From assembly GCA_001606155.1 (NCBI GenBank), contig LODT01000001.1:1337371-1401370 (forward strand): a DNA stretch of 64,000 nt, in the 5' to 3' direction. Under the pieces are notes generated by a model. It made no database searches. It had not been told where the DNA came from and worked only from the letters and a program-made list of their open reading frames with translations. The DNA is from Tieghemostelium lacteum. Its lineage: Eukaryota > Evosea > Eumycetozoa > Dictyosteliales > Raperosteliaceae. A program made the position numbers and the translations under genes. This document shows positions 31,270 through 59,995 of the stretch, piece by piece; the stretch's first letter is position 1; the number at the start of each line of letters is the position of its first letter.

Positions 31270-31700
31270 TGTATATGTCTGTATCGTTTTGCGAAAAAAA
31301 AAAAAATTTTTGAGAGTGTAAAAAAAATTTGATGATTTACCGAAATTTTATGTAAAAGATTTGTAATTAAAAATTTTTTTTTTATATTTTTATCAAAATG
31401 AACAAAACATAGAATGAGATCAAATATAATAAATTTATCAAATATCTCAACTTTTATTCTTTTAAATTAAATTAGTTTAATGTACGATGAATTTTACTTT
31501 AAAATTTTTTATTTTTTTACTAGTTAAAATGGGTGGGATATTTAATTTAATATAAATGTGTGTTTTAATGTGTGTTCATTTAATATATTTAAAATGATTG
31601 ATCTGAATGAAATAAAAATTTTTTTTTTGAGTTAGAGTCAAATTAAGCTTTTAAACTTATTTAATTTTTTTACTTAATTAATGATTCCATATAGTTGAGT
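31270..31700. promoter_or_regulatory. Divergent promoter region, P1 / PHD-SPOC gene
   Basis: 431 bp of very AT-rich DNA with several A and T homopolymers of 8-12 bases (for example 31293-31305, 31374-31382 and 31619-31628), as typical of dictyostelid promoters. It must hold the start sites of a ribosomal protein gene and of the PHD/SPOC gene. No recognised factor site. Confidence 0.5.
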
Positions 31701-31944
31701 ATGGATGTCTTAGTATCTCAAGATGAAGATACTTCACTATTTAACCAACCTACTAGTAGCACAAATAATACCAATAACAGTACTATCGAAGATTTAATGA
31801 TGGGGACACAAGTATCTATTGATATCGATAACACTGATACAACTAATAACAATAACAACAATGATAATTCAATTATTGCAACGACTATACCACTATCATT
31901 TGATAATGATAATGAATCAACTGACAATAATTCAAATATCCAAA

Positions 31945-32006
<62 letters not shown>

Positions 32007-33945
32007 AAAATGTTAATTGACCATTTACAAAAATTAAATGTTGATCATCAAATTCAAGATCAATCACAACAACAACAACAACCACCAAGGCAACTAGACC
32101 AACCACAACAACTACCATCAGAGCAACTAGAACAACCACAACAATCAGAACAAAAATCACTAACAGAACAATCGAAGCAGCAACAAACAGAACAACTCCA
32201 AGTACAGGAAAATCTCAGCGAAAAACTCCAAGAATTTGTTGAGAATAAACAAAATAGTAACGATGATATAAATTTAGATATACCACCATCACCAATACTT
32301 CCGCATCATTCACCTGATGATATTAATAATGTTAATAATAATATTACATCAGATCAGGAATTAGAAAAAATAATAATAACAACAACAACAACAACAACCG
32401 AACCAATTACAACGGACTCTAAAAATCAAGTTGAGGGTTTTAAAGATAAATTAGAAGAAAGTTTAGAGGATATAAGTCAATTGAATGAAAATAATGATGT
32501 TGTTGAAGTTAATTCTACTATGACTGTAGACACATCAGTTGTTAGCTCACAGTTGTACTGTTTTTGTCAACAGATGGAATATGGATTTATGTTACGTTGT
32601 GATCATTGTTCTGAATGGTATCATGGTGATTGTGTTGGTATAGTTCAAATGAATGCCCTTAAAATGCCAAGTTTTTTTTGTCAACCTTGTCAAGTGCAAT
32701 TAGGATGCACAATTTATGGTACTCCTAATGACAATACAAATACTTCTAATCCCAATAATAATAATAATAATAATAATAACAATAATAGGAGTAAAAAACC
32801 TCTAGCTGTTTGTGCAATTGTAAATAATCCACCACCAAAAAGATTATTGTTACCTAATTGTAGAGTTTTTATACCCTATGATGAACATAATGAAAATTCA
32901 TTATATCGACGTTTTAAACCACCCAACTCTATACCAAAATCAATTAGAACTATCAGTAAGAGGGTACCACTAAATTTGAATTTTGATTTCACTTTTCCTT
33001 ATGTCGGTAACTTACCTTCTATTAACAATCAAGATACGTCTATGGATATTAGTAGTGATGTTTCTCTGATACTTAATAATGATACAAAGAAGGATACTGA
33101 TGAAGTTCAAGCTGATTTAACTTCTAGTATATTTGATAACACTAATCAACAACAACAAAAAAAAGTTATTTTAAATTCAATAAGATCTCATATGAAACCT
33201 TATATTGAAACTTCAAAACCCACACCAACTAAACCCAAACCAAAAACAAAATCACCAAAAAAATCAACAAAAAGAAAGAAAAGGGGGCAAATGACAGTCA
33301 ATGAAGATGTTGATAGTGATACTTTAAGTAATGAATTAAGTGATGATGATTATATATCTGAAGAAGAGGTAGATAAAGATGAAAACGATATTGAAACTGT
33401 ACAGAAAAAACCAAAGAAACCAAAGATAAAACTGAAAAAATCTCAAAAGATGTTTATAGATAATAAAATATCAAAATCTAAATCACCTACCACTAAAGTT
33501 CAACAACAAAAGACAAATAGTCCAACTGTTAAATCCACATCTCCTAGTAAAAAAAGACCTATAGAAGGTAAACCACTTGATGATATCCAATCTTCATCAT
33601 TAACAACTAGTGTAAATACACAAACAACTGATTCAACACCTGTTGACTCAACTTCAAAACTTGTTGATTCAACTTCAACAATAACAACAACAATAAATAC
33701 TGAACCAACTTCAAAACCTGTTGATTCAACTACAACAATACCACCTGAACCTACCAAAACAGATAATAACAACAACCAAAACGAAATACCAACTAAAAAG
33801 TTGAAATTAGATACACAATATCAAGAACAGAGTAGTTATAAAGCACTGTTTCCTCTAAAAAGAAAACCATCATCTTCTCAATCAACCTTCTTACAGAATA
33901 AAGGTGTTATTAAGTTAACACCTGTTAAATATAATCCCAATAGAG

Positions 33946-33987
<42 letters not shown>

Positions 33988-36900
33988 GTAGTACTAGTAG
34001 TGGAACTAGTGGTTATACATCAAGTAGTTCAGAAGTACATGTACCTTTAATAGCACCAGTACCAACTAGTACAGTACCTTCTAAACCAGCAGTAAAAAGA
34101 ACAAAGTCTATTAACAATATCAGAGACAGTGAAAGTAGAGTAGCTGTTAAGACATTGATTAGTGATGCTCTTTTAATTGGTTTTGAACCAAGTCAATTAG
34201 ATGATATTTTAAAGAGAATTGAACAATATAATAACGATATCTCAAATAGTACTACTCAAATGGATACAGTTAATATCCATAAACCAATTTTCATTCCAAA
34301 TCTTTTATTTTTGAATTCACTATTAAAACATCCCACAACTACTGAATATAATAACAGTAAAAATCAGCAAATACAATCAAAAACTTCACAACTATCAAAT
34401 GAAACAACAACTAATTCCACAACACATGAAAATATGCAAGTAGATGAAAACAATTCAATAGTAAATGGTAATATCTACTTTATAAAAATACTTTAAATTT
34501 TATATTAATACTTCTTTAAAATATAGAATCAAGTAGCAGTTCTCAAATTAATAATATCATAGTAAATAATCAAGATCAACAAACTATTCATAATTCAAAT
34601 TCACAGCCACTACCATCACCAACTATTGTTTCTGTAGAGTTAAATGATAATATAGAAACGACAACACAAGATAGTATACAAGTTGATGATAGCAATAAGA
34701 TTAACTATGTTGTAAATTTAAATGGTAATATCTACCTTATTTTAAATTAGTTTAAATTTAATATTAATACCTTTTATATAGATTTAATTAGCAGTGATAC
34801 TTCCAATAGCAATGTTTCTAGAGTATTAAATGACAATAGTACAGAAACACCAACAACTACAACTATACCTATAAATAATGATAGAATGAATGTTGGAGAT
34901 GAAAACAATAATAACAACATCAATATCAATCCAACAAATACTTTAGTTGAAAATAATGTTTGTAAAGATCAACAAATTATTATTAATACCTCTTCAATTT
35001 CACAACAATCATCATCATTACCAACTATTGATTCAATTGAAACAGCAACAACATCTACAGCTAAAGGAGATATGCATGCTGATTACAATAACAACAACCT
35101 GAACAATCTGAACAACAACAACAACAACACCACCAACGACAATATCAACTCTATTGGTATAGAATCAAGTAGTTACAGTGATACTGTAGCTAAAAATAAG
35201 GTTGAAGAGGAGCTATTTACTTTACCATCTCTAGATATAACTGGTGTTGCAAATGAAAATATAGTAACAATTGAAACACCTATTACTACATTAGATGTTT
35301 TAGAAATTTGTACAGAAATTATTTATTCCATCATTGATAGTATAGTATATAAAGATAATATTCAGTATACTTTTATTGATATACCTACTATTTCAACAAC
35401 TACACGCACAACTACAACAACAACAACAACAACAACATCAATAATTGAATGTGTACCTCTACCAAAACCATTACCAAAAAGACAACTCTCATTGATTACA
35501 GAGAAAGTTAAAATCGATCAATTAGCCTATGCAATTGAATCTGAATTATATACTACCTTTTCTGGTTCATCAACACTTTCAATTACAAGAGAATATTCTA
35601 TAAGGTATGTTAATTTTTTTCGAAAAACAATAATATTTATTGTATATTAAGTATAGTTGTAATTGTATCATTTAGAGCTAGAAGTTTATGTTTTAATATA
35701 AAAACAAATGTAGATCTTAGAGAAAAGATACTGACAAGTAGATTGTCACCACAGAGATTGGTTAAGATGTCAATTGACGATTTATCAAGTCAATCTATAA
35801 AAGATATAAAAAATGCATTGGCTGAGAAAACAACTAGAGATATTATTATTCAACCACTGAATATCACTAAAGAAATATCTGCCAAAATGGATGATGATAA
35901 TCAATCAAAATATATTGAATTTATGATTACTACTAAACCTATTGTACTTGGTAGTGTAATGAATGATGGTAACACTAATCTAATGAAATGTGATTCACCA
36001 ACTTCATCAACACCATCACCAACATTTCCAACACCTCTATTACCATCTTTATCAACTACTGATCAACAGACTATAGATAATAGTGATTCAAAAGTAGTAC
36101 AACAACAGTGTGAAATTGGATCTACTACATCATCAGCTACTACACCATTACTACTACAACAAGAAGAAGATATATCAATTATACATGACGCTGAATGGGA
36201 ATTTAATTTTACAAATCCACCTCCATTAACTACTACAACTACTACAACAACTACTACTAGTGTAGGCGTACTTGATCATAGACCAGTTGAATTGCCACCT
36301 TCACCTTGCTTTTCAACATCGTCTCATGCAAGTTCAGTACATAGTGATCGTCAGGGTACTACTAGTACTGGCAACCAAAGTACACAGAAAACTATTCATT
36401 TATTACCTGATCCTATATATAGTAACATTCAAATTAGTATAACTGTTGATCTTGCAAAGAAAAAGACATTTACAAGTGACTGGTTGTATATGTGTGGGTA
36501 TAGTCACTATGTGAAAAATAGAGATACTATTGATCCTTTACCTAGTCAATTGAGATTTGGAAAAGTAATTCCATTAGACAGAGTACTCAAATACTTTTCA
36601 GAGATTGATTACTCACTATCACGAACTAAAGTATGTTTCTATCTCTCACCAAAGACACAATACGATTGCGAGAGTAGTGATATTGTCTATAACATGTTGT
36701 CATCTTCTAAATGGGGTGTTGGTATAAAGGATTGCTCATATGGTAACTCAATGTATATTGTACCAGTTGCAAACTCTAAACTTGATGATTCATGCTACAG
36801 TTTAGAACAAAATGTTGCCATGAAACCAACACTCTCACAAAATTCAAAGGCACTGGTTTGTGTCTGTATAGTACCTCGTGATCCGTCTCATCAAAAGAAA

Positions 36901-37851
36901 CAGACTACTGATGTTCCATTCAACATCTTTAAAAGAATGGATCAAAGTGATGAAATTGAAGGACACAATAACATTGATCAGGTACACTCTATCATTGATA
37001 CATCAGTTGACATGTCAATAGACACCAAATCCAAAGACTCCAATATCATAGCATTAGAATCGCACAATACTCATTTGGAATTTGGTGAGAAACCAAAAGA
37101 TGATAACCACTCCTATTCTTATAATTCACATTATAATGAGCCCAATCACCAACAACAACAACCTAAACCATATCAGTATTACAATAGACATTATGATAGA
37201 CATTATGATAAACAGGAACCAAAATATTCTTATAAAAAACCACAATATAAAAGACCTGGAGGACCAAATAGAGACCATTTATATCCTAGTTCCCAAGAAT
37301 CAAATTATCATGATAGACACCTAAATAGACCAACACATAGAAATGAGCCAGTTACTGAGAAACAACATTCCCCACCTTTAAAAAATGAATCAATCTATCA
37401 TCCACAACAACCTGAACAACAACAACAACCTGAACAACAACAACAGCAGCAGTCACAGCAGCAACAAACACCACAACACCAAGTTCCACCTCAAGGATAT
37501 TATCAACCAGGATACTATCCACATACCCAATCTCCACCTCAGGGATATTATAATTATTACCCAACTCAAGATTATTATCCACCACACCCATATACATCCC
37601 CACCATATCATCAGCCACCTACACAACTACAACAAACACAATTTCATACATCAAATTACTCATATCCACCCCAAAGTCATTATCCACCCCAAAGCTATTA
37701 TCCACCCCAAAACTATTATCCACCCCAAAACTATTATCCACCCCAAAGCTATTATCCACCACCTTATACATACCCACCATATCATCTACCACCAACACAA
37801 CCAACAACACAACAAACACCATCAACAGTACCAAATTCACATAATTATTAA
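31701..37851 (+). CDS. PHD - TFIIS-like - SPOC protein (Bye1/DIDO/PHF3 type), four exons
   Basis: Exons 31701..34467, 34527..34724, 34782..35604 and 35676..37851 all agree in phase and give 1987 residues. The start is ATG 31701 (the frame also offers an upstream TTG). Domains: (GAT)20-encoded poly-Asp at residues 83-102; PHD finger about 286-333 (CFCQQMEYGFMLRCDHCSEW, then CQPC); Lys-rich linker about 500-620; TFIIS-like domain about 1230-1330, crossing the last intron (YSIR-ARSLCFNIKTNVDLRE, then LVKMSIDDL); SPOC domain about 1504-1660; Pro/Tyr/Gln-rich tail. Known relatives bind RNA polymerase II through the TFIIS-like domain, methylated H3K4 through PHD and the phosphorylated Pol II tail through SPOC, so the role is probably nuclear transcription elongation. 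Exon 2 is a symmetric 198-bp exon between two related introns. A broken copy lies at 55.9-57.5 kb. Confidence 0.9.
31947..32006 (+). repeat. (GAT)20 triplet repeat encoding poly-Asp
   Basis: Twenty uninterrupted GAT codons inside the PHD/SPOC gene. Such pure codon repeats are usually variable in length between strains. Confidence 0.95.
33948..33987 (+). repeat. (AAT)n triplet repeat encoding poly-Asn
   Basis: Thirteen nearly pure AAT codons in the PHD/SPOC gene. The pseudogene copy at about 56140 keeps only a short, interrupted version of this tract. Confidence 0.85.
37672..37761 (+). repeat. Five tandem 18-bp units encoding QxYYPP hexapeptides
   Basis: Units of the form CAAARYTATTATCCACCC repeat five times in frame near the C-terminus of the PHD/SPOC protein. 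They give a Pol II CTD-like or prion-like Tyr/Pro/Gln repeat (Q-N/S-Y-Y-P-P). The first unit has His in place of the first Tyr. Confidence 0.9.
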
Positions 37852-38023
37852 TTTTTTAATATTTTTTTACAATCTAAAAGCCATTAATCAAAATCTGCCA
37901 ACATCTTTATTAAAATTTTTATTTTTGCCTTTTCAAATTTTAATTGACATCATAAAAAAAAAAATTAACGAACATTATCTGCCATAATTGTGATAAATAA
38001 GCTTCTTAAAAGAAATAGATAAA

Positions 38024-40087
38024 ATGAAAAAATTATTAATTTTAATAATTTTATCATTGTTTTTGATAAGTGGGATCGAATGTGTATTTCCAAATACTAT
38101 AGCAGAAGTTACCAATTCTTCACATGGTATTTCTTTTGATAATCCAAGTACGGGTCCATTTACTACTATTAAATGCGATATAAATGGAGATGGTTTCCTG
38201 GATTTTATTTATACTACATCGACAACAATTTATGTATATTTTGGACCATTTACAACATTTTTATATGCATACAATTCACTGAATGGAACAAATGGTTTTA
38301 CGATTTTAAATTCAAAAACTAAAATTGCATGTAAAGATATAAACAATGATGGTTTTGATGATTTGATGTTATCACAAGATACAAATAGCTCTAATAGAGC
38401 TATACTAATCTATGGCACAAATCAAGGATATCCTGCATCTGCTTTTGATCCTATTAGTTATATTACATCTTCTCCAGGTGTTGTTGGATTTTATGTTCCA
38501 GGTGAAGCTGGTACAGGTCAGATGTTAGGTTCAAGCAAATGCAATGGTGATTTTAATGGAGATGGTATTTATGATTTTGCATTTGGTTCAAATATTGGTT
38601 CAGTGACACCTTCCACTGGTACTCCAGTAACCTATGTTTTATATGGTTTGGCAAATGGAAAATTCCCAACTGATGCTAATGGAATTTTTGATACCACTAC
38701 TTTAAATGGAAATAATGGTTTTAAAATTAATACCAACACCTTTTATCTGGGATGTGGTGATGTTAATAGTGATGGTTTGGATGATATCATTATAAACTTA
38801 GATCAAGTAAATGTCTACATATTCTTTGGTACATCCACGCCATATCCAAATGGGGTATTTACACCAACATTTAATGGAATAGATTCATTCAAAATCATTC
38901 AAAGTGGTTCCAGTATATTTACAAATATTTTAAATCTTTTTGGTGTTGGTGATTTTAATGGTGATGGACTAAATGATTTATCATTTTCAGCTAAAAAGTC
39001 AGGTGGTGATAATGTGGTCTATGTAATGTATGGAATGTTAAGCTATCAACCAACATATATCTTTCCAACTTATATAAATGGTACAACTGGTACTCAATTT
39101 ACTATTATAGGTAACTCAAACAGTTTATGCACTGAAAACTTCCTGAGAGATGTCAATGGTGATGGTATTGCTGATTTAACTTGTTCTGGAGCCACCTACA
39201 AAGTGTGGTCTGTTTTTGGAAGACTTTCACCATTTCCAGCAACAAATAACCTGGTAGTTTCTACTGACCCAAACACATTTTTTGATAGATGTGTAGGATT
39301 TTATATACCTGATTCAATTCCGCCATATTATTATGGTGATTTTAACTCTGATTCAATTATTGATTTACAAGTTGCTACCACTTCCTCTGATGCAGTTGTA
39401 ATGTATGGCACTAAATTCTTTGATATCTCATCATCATTGGATTTAACTATTGAAAAAGTCTATAATCAAACTGATTATCTTCCATACAATAGTACATCTA
39501 CCCAAAGTAATGGTACATGTCCAATTTCATTTTTCACTGTCACCATTGAAGATCAAAATTCTGGTGATACTCTTGAATTTGAAAATCCAAATCCATCATT
39601 AGCCGGTATTAAGTCAAATGCCTCCAATACCACAATAACAGTATATTCCATTGACCCTAAATCAACTGTATTTTTCAGTAGTGTACTACCTCTAATTAAA
39701 TTAAAATCAGCCAACAGTACACAAAATTCAACCATTTCAATCACACTCGGTGGGCAGACATTTGACATCTTATATACTGCTGCTACAATCCCTACAAACA
39801 CCTCCACTACAACATCTTCTACTACAACTACTTCTACTACAACTACTTCTACTACATCTCCATTACCACAAAGTTCAGAATCCGTTGATAATAATGAAGG
39901 CAAAAGTAAGAGTAAAGTTGGTGTAATTGTTGGACCAATTGTTGCAGGAGTTGCAGTTGCATCCTTGCTAATATTTGGAGCATTCTTCATCAATAAGAAA
40001 AAGAAAGCCAAGAAACCACTCGAAAATCAAGTTTCAATGACACAAATCTTCACTGGTGGTAAAATTGAAACTATTGATAAATTCTAA
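38024..40087 (+). CDS. Membrane-anchored seven-repeat FG-GAP protein 3
   Basis: 687 residues, single exon, ATG 38024. Signal peptide MKKLLILIILSLFLISGIEC. Seven calcium-loop motifs: CDINGDGFLDF, KDINNDGFDDLM, GDFNGDGIYDFA, GDVNSDGLDDII, GDFNGDGLNDLS, RDVNGDGIADLT and a degenerate DFNSDSIIDLQ. A beta-rich region follows, then a Thr/Ser stalk (about residues 585-615). A membrane helix (VGVIVGPIVAGVAVASLLIF) and a basic cytoplasmic tail of about 35 residues end it. Unlike the two paralogues at 24 and 28 kb, it has a membrane anchor, no cysteine-rich tail and no intron in the first loop. The architecture is that of an integrin-alpha-like surface protein, though without a recognisable GFFKR motif. 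Function inferred. Confidence 0.88.
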   Translation: MKKLLILIILSLFLISGIECVFPNTIAEVTNSSHGISFDNPSTGPFTTIKCDINGDGFLDFIYTTSTTIYVYFGPFTTFLYAYNSLNGTNGFTILNSKTKIACKDINNDGFDDLMLSQDTNSSNRAILIYGTNQGYPASAFDPISYITSSPGVVGFYVPGEAGTGQMLGSSKCNGDFNGDGIYDFAFGSNIGSVTPSTGTPVTYVLYGLANGKFPTDANGIFDTTTLNGNNGFKINTNTFYLGCGDVNSDGLDDIIINLDQVNVYIFFGTSTPYPNGVFTPTFNGIDSFKIIQSGSSIFTNILNLFGVGDFNGDGLNDLSFSAKKSGGDNVVYVMYGMLSYQPTYIFPTYINGTTGTQFTIIGNSNSLCTENFLRDVNGDGIADLTCSGATYKVWSVFGRLSPFPATNNLVVSTDPNTFFDRCVGFYIPDSIPPYYYGDFNSDSIIDLQVATTSSDAVVMYGTKFFDISSSLDLTIEKVYNQTDYLPYNSTSTQSNGTCPISFFTVTIEDQNSGDTLEFENPNPSLAGIKSNASNTTITVYSIDPKSTVFFSSVLPLIKLKSANSTQNSTISITLGGQTFDILYTAATIPTNTSTTTSSTTTTSTTTTSTTSPLPQSSESVDNNEGKSKSKVGVIVGPIVAGVAVASLLIFGAFFINKKKKAKKPLENQVSMTQIFTGGKIETIDKF

Positions 40088-40269
40088 AAAACAATTTGTA
40101 AAGCTTAATTAATCTCATAGGAAAATTTTAAAAGTTGATAGACTGAATTAGTTGATCAACTATTAATTAATAAATTTATTATATTTATTTTTAGAGGATA
40201 TAAATTTGAAATCATTTATGAGAGAGTAAGGTAGATATTAATGATATTGTTAAATGTGAAATTTTATTT

Positions 40270-41646
40270 TTAGAGACCTGGATTTGAGGTTGAAAATAGA
40301 GTATTCATATCTAATTGAATCCATTGATTTTCATAAGCTGCTGTAATGGATTTTGGATTTGGTAATGGCCAAAGAGATGGTTGGAATGTAGAGGCAACCG
40401 AAATGTAGACTGTATTAGCTTCAAAATCATAGATGGCAGCATGGAGATCACCAGTTTGGAATTGGGCAACCAAGTTGATGAGAGCCTGGGCATTGATTTG
40501 ACCATAGTATTCAGAAATTAGACTGGGCATACAAGGATCAGAGTTTGGTTGAGTGTGTTTATCTACATAGACGATATCGTTAAAGAAAGGATGTTCAGGA
40601 GACTGTGGTGCATAACCAGGGAATGGAGTATCATCGTCAAAGACTCTTACAACATCATGAGAATATTCAACAACTACAGCTTGGCTTGACTCATTACTTC
40701 CAACACCAAGGAAAATGGAGCATGTTCTTTGAGTATTATAAATTCTATTTAAAACTTCATCGATACTGGTATCATATTGTAACATGTTTCTAAGATTGAA
40801 ATAAAATGGAATACCTTCGTATGAATAAGTACCGTTATATTTAATCCAAACTTTTTGACTGACACCAACTCTTTGACTGTACCCAGTAAGTGCACCAATA
40901 TACCCACTCCATGATAATATAGAGAATACATGACCATTACCAGCCTCTGGATGGTATACTATAAAAGTTGGTACTGATACCAATGGGTTATCCAAACCCC
41001 AGTCTAAAGCCCTCAATTGAATGAGGCCTCCATTGGGAGTGGCTTCACCCCATGCACCCAAAATTGAGCAATGTGCCTTAACCAATTCTGGGAACATGTG
41101 TAATCTGATAATCATCTGATAATCCAATCCAGAGCCATCAGAAAGTCCTTTTAACTCTTCATAAAACTCTGCGGCTGTATAAGGTTTAGTAACTAATGCA
41201 ATATAGTCAAGAGCAAAATTTACACCAAAATCCTCAATCATTTTAATAATAAAATCTGGAAGGATATTGATAAAAGCTGGTAGATTCTTTCCAATAGCTT
41301 CTTCGGCATAACTTAAGAATTGAGGGTACATGACATTCATTTGTTCTTTAAGAAGTTGACCATGTGCATAACCCATTTGGTATGGTGTACCGTAGACATG
41401 CAGTAAATTGACTGTAGTATTTTGACTTCCAACTTTATATAACAAACCATTGTCAACTTGTGTAACAAATTCTGGTGTTTCATTCCATATAATGTTACTA
41501 TTAACACTTCCTTTACAATTGTGTTTTGGATCTTCACTACTAGATGTTGATCCTTCTGATGATGGATGCCATTCTACTTCATTTTCCATTAATATTACAT
41601 TTTTAATCACGAAAATGATTAATAAACAGATAATTTGGTATTTCAT
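40270..41646 (-). CDS. Secreted C45-type Ntn hydrolase (acyltransferase/ceramidase-like)
   Basis: 458 residues from ATG at 41646; the frame runs further upstream only from a TTG and across the promoter. A signal peptide is visible (MKYQIICLLIIFVIKNVIL). The core matches the acyl-CoA:6-aminopenicillanate acyltransferase/peptidase C45 fold. GTPYQMGYAHGQLLKEQM is followed by the candidate nucleophile Cys in VKAHCSILGAWGEATPNGGL, then LRALDWGLDN and the late strand AAIYDFEANTVYISVA. Such precursors usually cleave themselves before the nucleophilic Cys. D. discoideum has related proteins named dcd1 (acid-ceramidase-like); I think this is one of that group, but the substrate is not known. Convergent with FG-GAP gene 3 and probably lysosomal or secreted. 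Confidence 0.85.
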   Translation of the reverse strand: MKYQIICLLIIFVIKNVILMENEVEWHPSSEGSTSSSEDPKHNCKGSVNSNIIWNETPEFVTQVDNGLLYKVGSQNTTVNLLHVYGTPYQMGYAHGQLLKEQMNVMYPQFLSYAEEAIGKNLPAFINILPDFIIKMIEDFGVNFALDYIALVTKPYTAAEFYEELKGLSDGSGLDYQMIIRLHMFPELVKAHCSILGAWGEATPNGGLIQLRALDWGLDNPLVSVPTFIVYHPEAGNGHVFSILSWSGYIGALTGYSQRVGVSQKVWIKYNGTYSYEGIPFYFNLRNMLQYDTSIDEVLNRIYNTQRTCSIFLGVGSNESSQAVVVEYSHDVVRVFDDDTPFPGYAPQSPEHPFFNDIVYVDKHTQPNSDPCMPSLISEYYGQINAQALINLVAQFQTGDLHAAIYDFEANTVYISVASTFQPSLWPLPNPKSITAAYENQWIQLDMNTLFSTSNPGL

Positions 41647-41862
41647 GATTTTTTTGATGATGTGGTGTTTTCGCAAAACGATATTATCTGAATGGCGATT
41701 ATTATTAGTAAACAAAAAAAAAAAAAAATAATCAAACTCGAAAAAAAATAATTAAATTTCAAATCAAAACCATTGAAAATAGAAGTATAATAAAGTGGAA
41801 CCCAATTCAATGATATTTATAAAATTTAAAAAATATCTAGGTTGATTGAATAAATTTTTTAT

Positions 41863-42759
41863 TTAAATATCTTTTTCTCTTTTGTGTTTCCGCTCTAAAT
41901 ATCTTTCTCTTGCGGCTTGAATAGATTTGTCGTCATTTCTTCTTGCCATAAATATATTTTTATTATTACTTTCTTTTTCTTCTTTATTATCTCTTTGTTG
42001 TTGTGGTTGTTCTTTTCTATTACTAAATCCAGGTCTATTAATATTATCATAATTACCTCTATATACATCTTTTTTTATAATATTTGTAGACTCTTTTGTA
42101 GATTGGAATTTAGTTGTTGTTATATTTTGTTGATTAGTTCTTGATTGAGATGATGGTTCATCTTTATTATACACATCATTGTACAAATTTTTTTGAAATG
42201 ATTGAAAAGTTTTTGAATTTAATTGTTGTTTTTCTTCTAGTTGATCTAATCTATCCTGTTCCTCACGTTCTTTTTTATCTCTTTCAAGCTTCTCTCGATA
42301 GGAATCAGTTATATATGACTCTTTATCTTTATATTTATCCGCATCTATATCTCTTTCTTTTTGCATTTGTTTTTCTTTTAGTCTATCTAATTCTCTTTTC
42401 TTTTTCTGAGCAGATTCCACTAGAGATGCAATATATTTTGATTGTTTAGGTTCCTCTTTAGGTCTAGTAGATAATCCTGCTCTATGTTGTAATGCTTTTC
42501 TACTATTACCTCCATCCTGTTCTTTCATAGAATCATAAACAGAATCATATTCAAAAGCTGTTGGATCATCTTTTAAAGCATCGTTATAAGTTTTCTCTAA
42601 TTTTGTATTTTGTTTTTGTTTTAAAAGTTCAGCTATATGATTAGTTGGTCCAGATTCAATATCTACCTCATCCTCATCATTATCTTTAAATACTATTGCT
42701 TTTTTCTTTGCAGTAGGTAATTGTAAACCATATTTCCTAGGAACATTATCACTGGACAT
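41863..42759 (-). CDS. NSRP1/CCDC55-like nuclear speckle splicing regulator
   Basis: 298 residues from ATG 42757-42759; a longer frame upstream is just a T/A tract and is not counted. The N-terminus PRKYGLQLPTAKKKAIVFKD, the block DPTAFEYDSVYDSM and the coiled region YIASLVESAQKKKRELDRL are characteristic of the NSRP1 (DUF2040) family. The C-terminal AARERYLERKHKREKD also matches. Members are nuclear and affect splice-site choice. The middle (residues about 185-270) is Gln/Asn-rich and disordered. It is divergent from the p24 gene with 165 bp between the starts, including a run of about 20 T at 42842-42863. Confidence 0.9.
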   Translation of the reverse strand: MSSDNVPRKYGLQLPTAKKKAIVFKDNDEDEVDIESGPTNHIAELLKQKQNTKLEKTYNDALKDDPTAFEYDSVYDSMKEQDGGNSRKALQHRAGLSTRPKEEPKQSKYIASLVESAQKKKRELDRLKEKQMQKERDIDADKYKDKESYITDSYREKLERDKKEREEQDRLDQLEEKQQLNSKTFQSFQKNLYNDVYNKDEPSSQSRTNQQNITTTKFQSTKESTNIIKKDVYRGNYDNINRPGFSNRKEQPQQQRDNKEEKESNNKNIFMARRNDDKSIQAARERYLERKHKREKDI

Positions 42760-42924
42760 TTTATTAAGTATATATAAATGAAAAAGGTAGAGGGGGATAG
42801 AGAAGTCGTTACGTCTTTGAAATTCAAAATGACTCAAAAAAAAATTTTTTTTTTTTTTTTTTTGAATTGAACAACACTCCAACATCAAATCATTTTTTTA
42901 AAAAGATTAGATAATATAGAAAAA

Positions 42925-52260: not shown

Positions 52261-53309
52261 AGTTCATTAATTGGTAAGTTCTCATTCAAATAGGAATCAT
52301 GTGTTGAAAGAATATTAATTTGATGTATATAGGTACAATACCAATCGGCTTTATAAGATCTTGTGTATTACATGTTAAAATTTCAAAATTTAAGTTTATT
52401 TATTATGTAATATTATATTAATTGTTTGGCAATTAGTTTTCAATTTACCATTTGGATATCTCAATTGTAATACTATAACACATACCATCTATTGTAATAG
52501 TACCAAAGTGTAATAATTTACTCACAACAAATAACTAGAGTGTGGATGTATATGTATGTCAATTAAAAATTGAATTAATCATATGCATCATGAAGCTCAA
52601 CTGAAATTAATATTTATTTATAAATTTAATGGGGTAGCTCAGGCTGATCCCAATCCATTATTTAATCAACTTAACAAACTTACCTAGTATCCAAATAATC
52701 AAACTTATCCACCAATTAACCTAGCTAGATCAATCATTCATCTAAATAAAATTCTCATATTAGATTATAATAGTTCATTATATTGAACTTTTTATCCACT
52801 AAAATATATTTATTTATTTAATTGTTATAATATTAAATATTCGTTTACATATTCACATATTAATAAATTTACATTTAAATTACTTAATATAAAATAAATC
52901 ATATCAAAAACTTCGAATTTATGAAATGGTTACCATAAGAACTAATGTATGTACCATTTCTTCTTGTAAAACTGAAATTCTAAAGTTCTACATATTTTGT
53001 TATGAAAGTGAAGAAAACAAGAAGGTCTTATGAGTAGGAGAAGAGGCATAGGAGGAAGAAACTTGGTATCCAATTAATACCTTTTGCATAGTCTCTCTTT
53101 ATTGAATATTTTCTAAACTATTCAAAGACTTTATGTATTAAATAAAATAAATATATATAACAAAAATTTAGAAATAAATAGTTTTTGTTTAATTATTTCT
53201 TTCAAAATTTTTTTTAAAAACTTTAATTATAATTACTTAAAAGGCTCAATATCCCAACATTATTGGATTGTTTATATATTTTATTAAATTTGTAAATAGT
53301 ATTGATATT
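52261..53309. other. Gene-poor AT-rich DNA with two small relics
   Basis: About 52582-52796 (+) reads as HHEAQLKLIFIYKFNGVAQA, then DPNPLFNQLNKLT, a stop, then YPPINLARSIIHLNK. It looks like a decayed coding fragment of unknown type. About 53000-53105 is a diverged match to 56688-56795 (both contain AGAAGGTCTTATGA and AGGAGAAGAGGCATA), so it is probably a fragment of the same LTR-type element. The remainder is A/T homopolymer-rich and holds nothing I can support. Confidence 0.4.
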
Positions 53310-53480
53310 CCTTCTTTACCAAATCTCTTCCATTCGACTACTCAAAGTTCACCATATCTAACACAATCTATATCTTCGAATCTACTCACCAATTCAAAAG
53401 CATAGTCAAACATCTCCAATTCAAAGATATCCTTCTTCAAAACACAACATCTACAAAAGTGAAATATAGAGATCGATAGC
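53310..53480 (+). mobile_element. Third, heavily decayed fragment of the non-LTR retroelement
   Basis: Same orientation as the copy at 54285. Shared words are ACCAAATCTCTTCCATT, GACTACTCAAA and CACCAATTCAAAA, and AACATCTACAA occurs in order. This corresponds to the reverse-transcriptase C-terminal zinc-knuckle region of the other copies, with many indels. The DNA after it (about 53538-53627) encodes VYVEAFTWTSNGKSCSGS in one frame, an unrelated relic. Confidence 0.55.
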
Positions 53481-54284
53481 ACACAAGTACTGTGAAGGAA
53501 AGGTGAAAAGAACTTTGAAAAAAGGTTTAAAAGTATTTGACACCGTTTATGTGGAAGCGTTTACATGGACCTCTAATGGAAAAAGTTGCTCTGGTTCAGC
53601 TATAGCAATTAAAAATGATCAAGAATAATCAAAAGTAAAGAAATTGTTTATAGTTTTACATTTTCATAATGATTCAAAAAAGAATGCAAAGACATAAAAA
53701 GAGTATAAGAATTTTAATTCAATAAAATTACTAATATTAAAAGTCTATTAAAATATGACAAGAATTCTTTTTTGAAGTCTTTACTTAAAAATTTGTTATA
53801 TATAATATAGTCTTGGTATTAAAACTGTAGTGAAATCTAATTTATTTTATCTTAAGATCTTATAAAAAGACTGTAATAAAGGAGGGTAAATACTCAAAAG
53901 GGATATTTAATGCCTTGCATCATCCTTATTTGGAAAATACTACCAAAGATTGAATTAACAGACTACAATCAAGGGATATAAGAATCATTGGACTATTTAT
54001 AATGAATGAAAGAAAAAATGTTTTGAAATCCTAATTATATTAAACAATAAAAACAGTGCTATCTATCCACCAATAATGGAGCTATTGTACTTAACTACAG
54101 TTATTCATTTTAGGATCCTAATAATCCAAGTCTTTGCAAATTGTAGATCAAAGTGAGCGTAATAGTCTCTTGAACTCTTTTTCAATTTTGCCTTATTAGG
54201 AGATCCTTCTTTTTAAATATAAAATTAATTAATTTAATAAATAAAGTATAAATCAAATTTGAGTTATTTTGGTGAATTCACCCC

Positions 54285-54996
54285 CTATCTTCAACCATTC
54301 AAAAGAGATAGGTCAACTCCCCTACAAAAACTTCTTTTCAATTAATGACAACCCTATCTTCCAAATCAACTAAAAAAAATTTACCACACAACACTACTAC
54401 CATCTGTATCTATAAATCAAATACAAAAAAGACCTATCCAAACAACCTCAAACCAATATTTACCAGCTCAAGGAAGGTAAATTTATTCCCCTTAAGTACC
54501 AATCAGCAAAGTTATAGATCCAAACCACCACAACATAATATTCCGTTACATCACCAAATCTCTTCCATTAGACTACTCAAACAAAAAATGCACCTTGTGC
54601 AACACAGTCTCTGAATCAATCTCCACCCGCATCTTTTTTGAATGCCAAACAACCACTACTGGATACACTCATCAATTCAAAAACACAATCAAATATTTCC
54701 AACTCAAAGATATTGAATGGACTCCTACTTCAATTCTCAACATCTACAATAGTAAATACCACATAATTCTAATTCTCATACACGGATACATCCAATTTAA
54801 TCAAAATACCTACCCTTAACCAAATCCTAAATATAATCCACCTAGAAAAAGAACTCCTTAAAGACAAAATCCTGCAGCTCCTAATAAACGGATCTAGACC
54901 ATACTCAAATTCAACAATACTTCAAAATATAAATAAAAAAAACAACTGATGTCGGCTTTGTGAGCCCTCTCAGTACAATTAAAATTTTTAAAAAAA
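54285..54996 (+). mobile_element. 5'-truncated non-LTR retrotransposon with 11-bp target-site duplication (copy A)
   Basis: Flanked by a perfect duplication GAATTCACCCC at 54274-54284 and 54997-55007. The 3' end is AATTTTTAAAAAAA, as expected of a poly(A)-type element. About 54585-54830 encodes the C-terminal zinc-binding end of a LINE-type ORF2 in broken frames (CTLCNTVSESIST, then FFECQTTTTGYTHQF). This is a C-x2-C...H-x-FFEC knuckle typical of non-LTR reverse transcriptase tails. Only the last 0.7 kb is present, the usual result of 5' truncation during target-primed reverse transcription. No active reverse transcriptase domain is present here. Confidence 0.82.
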
Positions 54997-55007
54997 GAAT
55001 TCACCCC

Positions 55008-55929
55008 TTTTGGTTGGTATCTGGAATCTTTAGTCTCCCATATAAGAGGCATACATCTTACAGACATCAAATTTATATAAAGGACCTTTATATCCATTCA
55101 CTCCACACCAATGGAACAGTCTATATGACTTTCTGCTATATCTTGTTATAACAGCTCTGAATGTATTGCCTGGTTCAGTGATAGAGACAACGTTAGACCT
55201 GCTCTAGGAATATCCAGTGTTCTACATTTTAAAATATTAAAATATCATCTATGCTTTTCTAAAATAGTCTTCATTTATTTCCTTCATTAATTAATCTGCT
55301 TTTCTATTTATATAAGTGTATTGAAGACTCGCAATTACTTTTATCTAAAACAAATTTGAAGTATCCACAATTAGAAAAAATCAGAGACTTTGAAGAAAAC
55401 AGGATGCAATAAAATAATACCATTCCATTCTGGATACAGTAGGTCAATTTAAAGTCTGTTAATGGAGATGGTCTGACAGAAAAGAAGCCAATAGTGTATT
55501 TGCATAGTAAAGGTGAACAACTATGTAGGCTTTGTAATTGCAAAGGATGAAAATATCCGGAACTTATGCATTTGTAAGATTCTTTTTATCTTGAGATCAC
55601 CAAGTTTATTCTGCCTAAGGTTGAAACCAAATACAAAATGAATAGCTTCAATGACTCTAGAAAACCTGAATATAATTAAAAATTTTCCATTTTATTAAAT
55701 GTTCTAGTAAAAATATTTTTGAATTTTTGGAATTCATTGGACAAATATATCAAAACTATAATAAAAAAATTATATATTTAAATATTTATGGTTACTGTGT
55801 TTTTGTATATAGTTTCGGTGTTTTTTTATTTTAGCTCTCTAGAAATACTCATACCAAAAATGAATGCAAATACTTCAAAAAGGTTAAACTAGAATTATTT
55901 AACCAAAATATTTTAAAAAGTTATACATC
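55008..55929. other. Gene-poor stretch between the element copies
   Basis: Short open frames only, none with recognisable content. About 55304-55543 on the minus strand has an ATG frame (80 codons) of mixed, uncertain composition. There is no clear repeat with other parts of the window. It is probably more decayed sequence, including the continuing 3' part of the PHD/SPOC pseudogene near 55900. Confidence 0.4.
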
Positions 55930-56218
55930 TCCCAGAAATAGTAGAATATCATCTGATTGCTTTGTTGAAAAGCAACTAACAGAGCATCACAAGTCAATGT
56001 CTAAACATCTACTCTACTTTCACTCTTATTTTGTTCATAGACTTTAATGACTGGTTTAGGAGGTAGTTTTGTTAAATGTACATTTAATTCTGAACTACTT
56101 GATGTATGACCACTAATCTAGTTCCATTATTCTACTATTATTATTACTCTCATCCTTTGGGATTTTATTTAACAAGTGTGGCTAAATAACACCTTTTTTC
56201 TATAATAAGGTTGATTTG

Positions 56219-57411
56219 TTTTTTTAAAAATTTTAATTATACTGAGGGGATTACAAATCCGACATCAGTTGCTTTTTTTATTTATATTTTGAAGTTTTGT
56301 TTATAAGTATTGTTGAATTTGAGTATGGAGAAATTGATTTTGTCTAGATGTAAGGAAAGAAACACACAATACTAACGAGATAAAGACTCCAGAAGATTTC
56401 TCTGAGGTTTCACAAGAAGAATTCGTAAAGAAGAAACGAATAAATAAGCTAGAGAAACTTCGAGAAGATGCCACATATATATTAGCCAAAAGATTCTAGA
56501 AGGCTCTAGAATCTTTACACAATTAATATAAATACTTAGTAAATAAATTAAATAAATATAGTTTTAAAATCATAAATAGAAACCTCTTCTTTCTTACAAT
56601 TGGTATCACCTGTTAGGTAGTGAGTTCGAGACTGATTGGGGATTGAAACAAGATTCCTATCAGAATCTCAGGATGGAGGGGAAGTGATGTAATGAAAGTG
56701 GAAGAAACCAGAAGGTCTTATGATAAGGAGAAGAGGCATAAGAGGATGATACCTAGTATCCGATTAGTCCCTTTTGCGTAGTGGTTATACATCTCCCTTT
56801 CTTACACTAGATCTCTATTTATTTGGAGTTGCAGGATTTTATCTTTAAGGAGTTCTTTTTCTAGGTGGATTATATTTAGGATTTGGTTAAGGGTAGGTAT
56901 TTTGATTAAATTGGATGTATCCGAGTATGAGAATGATGTCCATTTGTTCCAGATTGATTTGAAGGTGATGGCGATTATGTTGATTAGAATTATGTGATAT
57001 TTACTATTGTAGATGTTGAGAATTGAAGAAGGAGCCCATTCAATATCTTTGAGTTGGAAGTATTTGATTGTGTTTTAGAATTGATGAGTGTATTCAGTGG
57101 TGGTTGTTAGGCATTCAAAAAAGATGTGGGTGGAAATAGATTCAGAGACTGTGTTGCACAAGGTGCACTTTTTGTGGTCTAATGGAAGAGATTTGGTAAA
57201 GTAGCGGAAAATAATGTTGTGGTGGTTTGGATCTTTAACTTTGTTGATTGTTAGGAGTAATTTGGTACAGTTGATATGGGATTTTTTTTCCATTTTTAGT
57301 TGGGAAGGGGTGAGGGGTAGGATTATATATGGAGGAGGTTTGGTTGTATCTATTTGTAGAAGAGGAATAAATTCACCTTCCTTGGGTTGGTAAATATTGG
57401 TTTGAGGTTGG
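56219..57411 (-). mobile_element. Non-LTR retrotransposon fragment (copy B) inserted in the PHD/SPOC pseudogene
   Basis: Same element as copy A but on the opposite strand, with near-identical stretches (for example CTTAAAGAGATATTGAATGG-type words and the AACATCTACAATAGTAAATA block). It encodes CTLCNTVSESISTHIFFECL, then TTTTEYTHQF, in a partly open frame (57293-57075). It ends in the same AATTAAAATTTTTAAAAAAA at 56219. The flanking pseudogene bases CAATCAACC (57420-57412, reverse strand) and CAAATCAACC (56218-56209) are a nearly perfect target-site duplication. It is interrupted by the LTR-type insert at 56349-56806. Without the insert it is about 730 bp, 5'-truncated at a different point from copy A. 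Confidence 0.8.
56349..56806 (+). mobile_element. 458-bp LTR-type (TRIM-like or deleted) element with 5-bp target duplication
   Basis: Flanked by CTAGA at 56344-56348 and 56807-56811. The ends are TGTAAGGAAAG and CTTTCTTACA, that is TG...CA with short inverted repeats. Inside, 56349-56598 looks like a 250-bp 5' LTR ending TTTCTTACA. Next comes TTGGTATCACC at 56600, a typical primer-binding-site position and sequence start. A purine tract GGATGGAGGGGAAG at 56671-56684 then precedes a second TGTAATGAAAG...TTTCTTACA segment (56688-56806). The two LTR-like parts share only their ends, so internal deletion or a chimeric origin is likely. No protein is coded. Copia-type affinity is suggested by the PBS and is unproven. 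Orientation is inferred from PBS and purine tract. Confidence 0.6.
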
Positions 57412-57522
57412 GGTTGATTGGGATGGTTTTCTTTAGTATAGCTTTACTTGATATTGTGTATCTAATTTTAACTTTTTAGTGGTATTTCATTTTGTTGTTC
57501 TTATTATCCGTTTTGTCATAGA

Positions 57523-58644
57523 TATCAATCAGTTAATGATTAGTTGTAATTAAATTTCAATGAGTCTTTTCAAATTGAAAGGCAAAATAAAAGTATTAGA
57601 AATCTATCAATATTAGATATATTAAATTGAAATTATTATAAAATATTGGATGCAAATACTTCTTTTCGAATAACGATTTAGAAAGACTTTAAAAATATTT
57701 TCCAATTATATTTATATCTACTTTAAAATACCTATAGAGTCCAAATTATTTAATAATTCGATCAATTTTTATGATAGGATTATATATTTAAAATCATTTT
57801 CGGTTTGATATAAATTGGTAAATAAAGATTGGAATCAAAATGTAATAATAAAAATTGCAAATATTATAATAATATTATGGTATATTTATTAATATACTCT
57901 TAATATACTGTAAAATCAAATGTTCAACTGAATTCATTCATATTATTTGTATATTAAACTCCTTAACTTCATTATAATTCCATTATTTTATTTTAATTAG
58001 ATAGGATATTTTAAAATTATCCTTTATTCGGTTATTATTTGTAAATGGTTGATGACAAGAGAATGGATAGATTGGGTAATTACATTTTTACCGCATCAGT
58101 TTGTTTCTGTAAATATGTATAATAAATTAAAAATACAAATATATGTTTCTAAACTATATTTAATTCATTGAATAGTTTATTTTGTTTAAGTTGTAGTATA
58201 CTAAATTATTATTTATTTATTTGGCATGCCCAATAATACTCGAATTCTGTTTTTATCTTACTACTGCTACTTATATATATGTATTTACATTCATATATTG
58301 TTGATCTTTTAATATATTTAGAAACGGTATTTCAGTTAACAAAAGAAAAAAATACTAGAAATACAATAGAACTAGAAAAATTCAGTCATTAAATTAATTG
58401 TATACAAATACTAAAATTTAGAGTTTTTATAACATTTTTTTTGCTTAAACCCATAATTATGGAAACAGTTGTTGTGATATTATTGTTAATTTTAAAAGAA
58501 GTTGTAAGTGAAGCTAAAACATTTATAGTCTGATCACTATCAAATGATTTAATATCTAGTGCAGGTGTGGAAATTGAAATTATAAAATTTAAATTAATAT
58601 TTGTGTTTGATTTTATTTTTTTTTTTTTAATTACTTTTCAATAA
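57523..58644. other. AT-rich gene-free stretch with a DUSE-like motif
   Basis: No coding frame. ACCCATAA at 58449-58456 matches the upstream element (DUSE) that precedes many D. discoideum non-coding RNA genes by about 60 bp. The DNA from about 58500 to 58590 downstream is somewhat less AT-rich, but I cannot fold or name an RNA there. The motif is short and may occur by chance. Confidence 0.25.
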
Positions 58645-59995
58645 ATGGAAACTGTGATCAATAAATCATTCAATAAAAAGAGTACCATTTCAAATTATAT
58701 AAAAGATTTGAATACATTTAAACATGTTTTAAACTATTATCCAAATATTAAAAAAACACAAAGAGATGAATTACTGTCACCTAGATATCAGCATAATAGT
58801 AAAATTGATGAATTTATTAGAATAGCTAAATTCAATAAGAAAATTACTCAATATGATATTGCAACCATGGATATTAGTTCAAGTAAATATAGATATAGAT
58901 ATGTAATTAATTGGGAGATGGTTATTATTAATGACTAACACCTATTAAATGACTCAGTGATACACGATAAAAAAAGAAGAAAGAGTTGGTCAAAATCATT
59001 TAGGTTAATGGAAGTTGTATTAAATAGTGAACTTCTACCTGTGAAAAAGTATAATATAGATGAAATATCTACAAAATTACAAAATCTTTTGAAACCACAT
59101 AAAACTGTAGGTAATTTCAATAGAAATGATAAACTAAATATTGACATGACTTATAAAGTACATTAGATGCATTATATATGATGGTTGGTTATGGATTAGA
59201 GTTATATTAACAAATCATGATAATATAAATAAGTTTGATAAATATAAAAGTGAACTAGGAACTTTAATTGATATTGAAGAAAGTGAGTCATCTTCTGATG
59301 AAAAAGATACTAAATTAAGAGATGACAATGGACCTACTCACAGTGAAGTTAAATCAGAAAGAGATTCAAAAGAGTCTATAATGTATATTACACATAGACT
59401 AAATAGTAAATATTTTATAAAATCAAATAATATACATTTTAAAGATGATCATATAATTCAGTCATTGTCATTAGTGATGGGTTATAGAGATTTACAAATA
59501 ACTCCTATTGAGGAATCAGATTACTATGACTCAATTAAAGAGATTATTGTAGGTGATTCAAAGAATGATTTGTGTTCGTTATCTGAAAGTGTGGTATCTA
59601 AAACAATAAACAATTCAAAAGAAAATAGCACATCACCACCAAAACCTGAAAATTCTGTGAATAATAGACTACAATTTAAAAGAAATGTGCAAATTGAAAT
59701 TAATACAACTTTACAATTAGGTCATAGTTATATTTCAAAAAATAATAGTATACCTACCTCAACTAAAAAAGTACAAAAAACCCCAATAGAAGTAAAGAAA
59801 CAATTAAAATTCATAATTTCATTGAATGGTAATAATCCAATCCGAGGCTTAGAAAAATTGGTAGATTTAAAAAGGATTAAAGAACCATATCCTGAACATT
59901 TATCAGAATTGTACAACTCCAATAATTCAAAAATTAGTAATATAAAAATCAAAACTACTCTACCTTTTATATGCCCAAATAGTAATTTCAAATAA
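58645..59995 (+). pseudogene. Unknown gene broken by one stop and one frameshift
   Basis: From ATG 58645 a frame reads METVINKSFNKKSTISNYIK onward to a TAA at 58936-58938. The same frame continues without ATG (HLLNDSVIHDKKRRKSWSKS, and so on) to a TAG at 59164-59166. Directly there the reading shifts by one base into HIRCIIYDGWLWIRVIL, then KFDKYKSELGTLIDIEESES, which stays open to 59995. Together these would make about 450 residues, Lys/Ser/Asn-rich, with no family recognised, no signal peptide and no membrane helix. It is either a recent pseudogene or an intact gene with sequence errors at two places. No splice pair that cures both was found. Confidence 0.55.

Follow-up and report, generated by a model that had tools for sequence, protein, structure and literature searches.

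A nested insertion in Tieghemostelium lacteum whose innermost element carries long terminal repeats of two families

The final 64 kb of contig C42 of Tieghemostelium lacteum (which we take to be a synonym of Dictyostelium lacteum) make up the whole stretch of DNA analysed here, hereafter the window; the genome comprises 23.33 Mb in 43 contigs. Close to the contig end is a repeat islet in which three layers are nested: a copy of part of a PHD/SPOC gene, an L1-like non-LTR retrotransposon (LINE) lying within it and, inside the LINE, a 458-bp element (56349-56806) of the long terminal repeat (LTR) type (Table 1). There is no open reading frame of 150 amino acids or more within 52261-59380 of the window. 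LINE pieces are also seen at 53305-53467, and a further, diverged piece (83%) of Y, the right LTR of the inner element, at 52998-53092. Genome-wide, the Rfam family Dicty_Class_I_RNA gives 15 matches, 14 of them above the cut-off, while 14 control genomes give none.

Table 1. Positions of the nested features, and of a neighbouring LINE copy, in the window
Feature	Position	Strand	Remarks
Gene copy, 5' block	57412..57515	-	57447-57515 against gene 33755-33825; remainder matches more loosely up to CAATCAACC
Gene copy, 3' block	55942..56218	-	matches gene 33880-34211; stops in all three frames
5'-truncated non-LTR (L1-like) retrotransposon, 3' part, split by the inner element	56219..57410	-	genome matches; RT domain on a C23 copy
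LINE target duplication, one copy, CAATCAACC	57412-57420		minus-strand sense
LINE target duplication, other copy, CAAATCAACC	56209-56218		minus-strand sense; one A extra
CTAGA, left copy of the 5-bp target duplication	56344..56348	.	single in 7/7 uninterrupted LINE copies
X, left LTR, 250 bp	56349..56598	+	94.4% against the 251-bp LTRs of intact Dl_Skipper-1 copies; contains an HSE-like motif and a TATA-like box
AT dinucleotide, LTR to primer-binding site	56599..56600	+	
Primer-binding site (PBS) TGGTATCACCTG	56601..56612	+	complements the 3' end of tRNA-Met(CAT) plus CCA
INT, 87-bp internal region, including PBS and PPT	56601..56687	+	
Polypurine tract (PPT) region GATGGAGGGGAAGTGA	56672..56687	+	resembles the Skipper-1 PPT
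Y, right LTR, 119 bp	56688..56806	+	nearest copy 99.2% identical
CTAGA, right copy of the target duplication	56807..56811	.	
Second, separate, related LINE copy	54285..54996	+	82% identical in the shared part

The source of the outermost layer is a region of the window with two large open reading frames, one with a PHD finger and one with a SPOC domain, which are taken to be one gene from their spacing and from an earlier sequence-only reading of this DNA. That reading had described two adjacent reverse-strand blocks as a decayed copy of the gene, and both blocks are indeed collinear with the source region 33755-34211: read in reverse, 57515-57447 matches 33755-33825 at 92%, and 56216-55942 matches 33880-34211 at 70%, gaps counted. 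Its prediction that removing 56349-56811 and then 56219-57420 would restore collinearity with the gene was likewise correct, as the joined LINE flanks reach local alignment scores of 271-293 against the gene (four cuts), compared with 210 for the unjoined sequence, in which one block only is aligned; the maximum in a control of 200 two-base-block shuffles was 44. At the cut scoring 288, 329 of 370 aligned positions are equal over 458 columns. The copy spans exon 1 only and, given the stops in all three frames of its larger block, is a pseudogene.

Decayed pieces of the gene are not confined to the window. A genome-wide search with 33000-37850 returned 76 matches, comprising the gene itself (1), the window copy (2), six further pieces at five places (on contigs C11, C18, C6 twice, C9 and C8) and 67 others that are crowded on few stretches of the query and are probably simple repeats. 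LINE, X or Y pieces are present in the same fetched locus at four of the five places, C6 being the exception. The fragments (source 33755-36494; loci L040, L041, L042, L045 and L046) come mostly from different parts of the gene, and those on C11, C18 and C6 retain sequence matching the presumed introns, so that they look like DNA-level copies. The neighbouring stretch 38000-42900 gave, besides itself, only five short matches of 33-56 bases genome-wide, and the upstream part of the gene (31500-33150) gave 32 besides itself, all in three query stretches, which we likewise read as probable simple repeats. Across the first 52.3 kb of the window, the PHD/SPOC gene was the only part that matched the loci examined, some of which had been chosen by this gene.

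The second layer, the LINE, has an A-rich 3' end and is flanked, as had been claimed, by a duplication, CAATCAACC / CAAATCAACC; the PHD/SPOC gene itself has CAATCAACC at the insertion point, and the duplication is 8-9 bp long. The stretch 56219-57420, inner element included, has at least 124 matches in the genome. Over the longer part, LINE copies at seven compared loci have 86-97% identity, and all seven reach further 5', showing the window copy to be 5'-truncated. A copy on C23 gives a Pfam RVT_1 match, with LINE-1 ORF2 proteins as its best solved relatives. The longest copy has a 656-aa open frame with RVT_1, the longest open frame seen in this subfamily, for which no full-length copy was seen. 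Comparison with 54285-54996, suggested by the sequence-only reading, identified a related second LINE copy bounded by an exact 11-bp duplication, GAATTCACCCC (54274-54284 / 54997-55007). The layer thus combines an L1-like reverse transcriptase domain, 5' truncation, target-site duplications (TSDs) of variable length (8-9 and 11 bp) and an A-rich end.

The third layer had been described as a TG...CA element between two CTAGA copies. The element is real and does lie between a CTAGA pair, but it is no simple LTR element, as its two LTRs are unlike. Overlooked in that description were the Skipper-1 identity of the left LTR as against the different 119-bp LTR on the right and, in the outer layer, the gene pieces found elsewhere. 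At the insertion site, 7/7 uninterrupted LINE copies compared have one CTAGA, versus two in the window; the second LINE copy of the window also has one CTAGA there, with different flanking bases. The fixed-length, short TSD, the empty site elsewhere, the TG...CA ends, the PBS just inside the left LTR and the PPT just inside the right LTR are all those of an LTR element; the LTRs themselves (250 bp versus 119 bp) are unlike except at their ends. The starts of X and Y have 10 of 11 bp in common (TGTAA-GAAAG). The border into the PBS, C(T/A)TTCTTACA-A(C/T)-TGGTATCACCTG, amounts to 24 bp common to X-type and Y-type elements with one or two mismatches, and the dinucleotide before the PBS is AC in two intact Skipper-1 copies and AT in the other two INT-bearing copies. 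Two other descriptions of the element were considered and rejected. It is not a single long solo LTR, since X and Y are also found separately, both of them with copies between TSDs, and a Y-INT-Y arrangement exists. Nor is Y a later solo insertion next to the PPT: no TSD surrounds Y, and the join from INT to Y is the same in all three copies.

The sequence of the left LTR, X, indicates that it belongs to Dl_Skipper-1. Contigs C18 and C9 each contain an intact LTR-retrotransposon copy that measures 4763 bp between the outer ends of its LTRs. In both, the 251-bp LTRs are identical, TSDs are present (TAAAA and CAAAT), and there is a single open frame of 1476 codons with a chromodomain. We identify these copies as Dl_Skipper-1 because their length, LTR length and number agree with Table 1 of PMC5006619, where this chromodomain Ty3/gypsy element (chromovirus) of D. 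lacteum is entered with 4763 bp, an LTR of 251 bp and two full-length copies; a passage in the text of PMC5006619 gives one intact copy. The window X is 5.6% different from the LTRs of the two intact copies, and the inner element, with its internal region of 87 bp, is without the gag-pol and chromodomain that both of them have. The Skipper-1 LTR contains TTCTAGAAGGTTCTAGAA, a perfect heat-shock-element pattern by the consensus (HSE-like motif), with a TATA-like box, TATAAAT, ~15 bp downstream; in X, TTCTAGAAGGTTCTAGAA occurs with one mismatch at 56494-56511. In the C9:135930 region (L011 1508-1757), a solo Skipper-1 LTR sits inside another Skipper-1 LTR, at the HSE-like motif, with the TSD AGAAG.

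The right LTR and the internal region lead to another family. The inner element has at least 53 matches in the genome; among those listed, 11 are X pieces (four of them the LTRs of the two intact Skipper-1 copies), three contain INT (window, C17 and C19), 38 are stand-alone Y pieces and one represents the left LTR at C19. The existence of further genome copies of the LINE, X and Y supports the sequence-only reading. In the 48 loci examined, 18 copies of Y run end to end, 3 within INT-bearing elements and 15 standing alone. Exact 5-bp TSDs flank six of these 15 (none by the script's rule at the other nine; chance about 1 in 406 per pair, binomial P about 1e-12), which identifies Y as a true LTR. 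The nearest copy differs from the window Y at 1 of 119 positions, and INT is 100% identical in all three copies among the matches listed. The C17 copy of INT has a truncated X on its left and no matching flanks. The C19 copy is a Y-INT-Y element of ~306 bp, the sole one among the listed genome matches, where no complete Y-INT-Y was found, as its left Y is clipped by about 21 bases; it has short LTRs, a PBS and a PPT, no open reading frame and a length well under 1 kb. By these features, Y is the LTR of a tiny, non-autonomous, TRIM-like family distinct from X. A separate short LTR was considered for the left end of the C17 copy and rejected; the genome search gave no other match for the first 40 bases of this end, which makes a truncated X more likely. 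At C8:23393-23624 (L025 1396-1627), a Y LTR runs directly into the 3' half of an X LTR, and the flanks do not match.

A tRNA-Met(CAT) is encoded twice in the genome (C9:464982-465055 and C9:471589-471662), and the Skipper-1 PBS matches its 3' end plus CCA over 13 nt, the TRIM PBS over 12 nt; the A54-type T loop and the A1-U72 pair lead us to take this tRNA as the initiator. The PBS of D. discoideum DGLT-A has no matching tRNA according to the relevant passage of PMC5006619. That Y and INT themselves represent a tRNA or another known RNA was rejected, as ARAGORN called no tRNA in L016, L010 and L001 and no Rfam family passed, the only two matches being CRISPR repeats below gathering scores that are taken as chance. 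By eye, A-box-like (Y) and weak B-box-like (INT) stretches can be picked out in 56625-56800 of the window, probably by chance.

The order of the layers is fixed because their target duplications are nested, each younger TSD being made of the sequence of the older layer. The succession originally proposed, gene duplication, then LINE, then LTR-type insertion, is thereby confirmed. The gene copy is the most decayed of the three layers. The inner insertion looks young, given that INT is identical at two other loci and that Y is a single base from its nearest copy, and from this youth it would follow that the divergence of X from intact Skipper-1 predates the insertion.

Normal reverse transcription yields two equal LTRs. 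The nest as a whole is, in our judgement, probably best explained, well short of certainty, by an X-INT-Y cDNA that arose through template switching between Skipper-1 and the TRIM-like element and that integrated as one unit into an already layered site. Part of the PHD/SPOC gene was duplicated, its copy decaying to a pseudogene, and the L1-like LINE then inserted into it in 5'-truncated form, presumably by target-primed reverse transcription. An LTR-type integrase would have placed the 458-bp cDNA into the LINE with a 5-bp duplication; of the two LTRs of this cDNA, the 5' one was of Skipper-1 type and the 3' one TRIM-like. For the cDNA, we infer a template-switch route: in a shared particle, Skipper-1-type plus-strand strong-stop DNA (or a nascent strand) would jump to a TRIM molecule at its PBS. 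X would then be the template of the left LTR, and the TRIM that of the remainder, including the right LTR. The switch point would have to lie in the 24-bp LTR/PBS border common to both types. The TRIM probably uses Skipper-1 proteins in trans, as suggested by its matching PBS core, its similar PPT and its want of coding capacity.

Two elements that recombined after integration would be left with flanks that differ, following an argument made in a section of PMC1950507; here the flanks are the same on both sides and belong to a single LINE copy, so that X-INT-Y most likely integrated whole. That an X-type left end is joined to INT and Y again at C17 also counts for a mixed cDNA. Several observations count against the switch. 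X is 5.6% from the intact Skipper-1 LTRs while INT is identical among its copies, which requires a diverged Skipper-1 LTR as donor. The AT before the PBS is of the TRIM type, and a simple transfer from an intact-like Skipper-1 would bring AC. Only one mixed copy, that of the window, has an intact TSD; at C17, X is truncated and the flanks form no duplication. The clipped left LTR of the C19 TRIM, which leaves no complete Y-INT-Y, and the nine of 15 stand-alone Y copies with no TSD by the script's rule are on the same side. Between the window and C17, X differs at several sites, and at one of these C17 has the state of the C8:23 copy and not that of the window; these differences hint at independent origins of the two. 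It is a tentative proposal that Skipper-1 and its miniature parasite repeatedly swap LTRs by intermolecular plus-strand transfer at their common PBS. If this were so, the parasite would carry a complete LTR of Skipper-1 together with the heat-shock-like promoter presumed to lie in it, and the retroelement genomes of compact protists may keep dated natural records of plus-strand transfer.

A different history would start from a normal Y-INT-Y TRIM inserted at CTAGA; X would later have taken the place of its left LTR, by gene conversion or by microhomology-mediated repair between the LTR ends. The resemblance of X and Y at their starts, and across the 24-bp border with the adjoining PBS, could have guided such an exchange, and copies of these elements crowd parts of some contigs, where conversion could be common. 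The conversion tract would, however, have to end exactly at the TG with ~11 bp of homology, the LINE flank is absent from known X copies, and a single integration explains the intact CTAGA pair more simply; we consider replacement unlikely. That X-INT-Y is a standing family structure, multiplying as a unit, is improbable: an X-type left end is found in two of the three INT-bearing copies, but ordinary reverse transcription yields like LTRs, a Y-INT-Y copy and at least 38 stand-alone Y matches exist, and the differing X parts of the window and C17 are weak evidence against one lineage. Slightly less probable still is that the assembly has fused two insertions into a chimera, for which the repeat-rich end of C42 and the division of the assembly into 43 contigs could speak; the flanks read as one LINE copy, so that two LINE copies would have to have been hit at an identical base, and at C17 the X-INT-Y order is seen again between different flanks. 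Three unrelated repeats lying side by side by chance, without nesting, can practically be dismissed, for although the islet contains several repeat fragments, this idea is contradicted by the collinearity, by both duplications and by the seven of seven empty sites.

The nesting itself is ordinary; the new point is the mixed-LTR copy, integrated in our preferred reading as one switched cDNA. LTR retrotransposons are dated as if their two LTRs had been the same when they inserted, a rule on which the annotation of solo and two-LTR copies also relies. The present copy, bounded by a TSD but with LTRs from two families, suggests that this rule can be broken in one step. A literature search on T. 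lacteum retrotransposons gave no paper, and none of the titles and abstract openings listed on TRIMs in Dictyostelium and on unlike or switched LTRs reports a dictyostelid TRIM or a mixed-LTR insertion of two families. Table 1 of PMC5006619 enters three LTR elements of D. lacteum, with LTRs of 251, 163 and 206 bp; a 119-bp LTR is not among these entries, from which Y is set apart by LTR length only. The mixed copy also links a non-autonomous miniature element, without a matching entry by LTR length in that published table of dictyostelid retrotransposons, to a probable helper.

Among known systems, the window element is like Dl_Skipper-1, as described in the consulted portion of PMC5006619, in its left LTR (94.4%), PBS core and similar PPT, and unlike it in having no coding region and a right LTR that is not of Skipper-1. 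The short LTRs, the PBS and PPT with almost nothing between them and the lack of an open reading frame recall Cassandra, as far as it is described in the excerpt of PMC7215508. The LINE has the L1-like reverse transcriptase, 5' truncation and A-rich 3' end of the dictyostelid TRE and other L1-like retrotransposons in the same portion of PMC5006619; its family is Dl_TRE5-A or another, the likeness to TRE families being one of features and not of sequences. The Triticeae template-switch insertions of Sabot and Schulman (2007; PMC1950507, in the section cited above) offer the same argument for integration as one unit from an intact 5-bp TSD, but they have three LTRs of which the outer ones are alike, in contrast to the two unlike LTRs here. 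In favour of the switch, an equivalent transfer has been proposed for HIV-1 proviruses with asymmetric LTRs, where according to PMC9278108 plus-strand strong-stop DNA anneals to the PBS of a second template; they too have unlike LTRs in one integrated copy, but those LTRs differ by deletions within one virus, whereas here they come from two element families.
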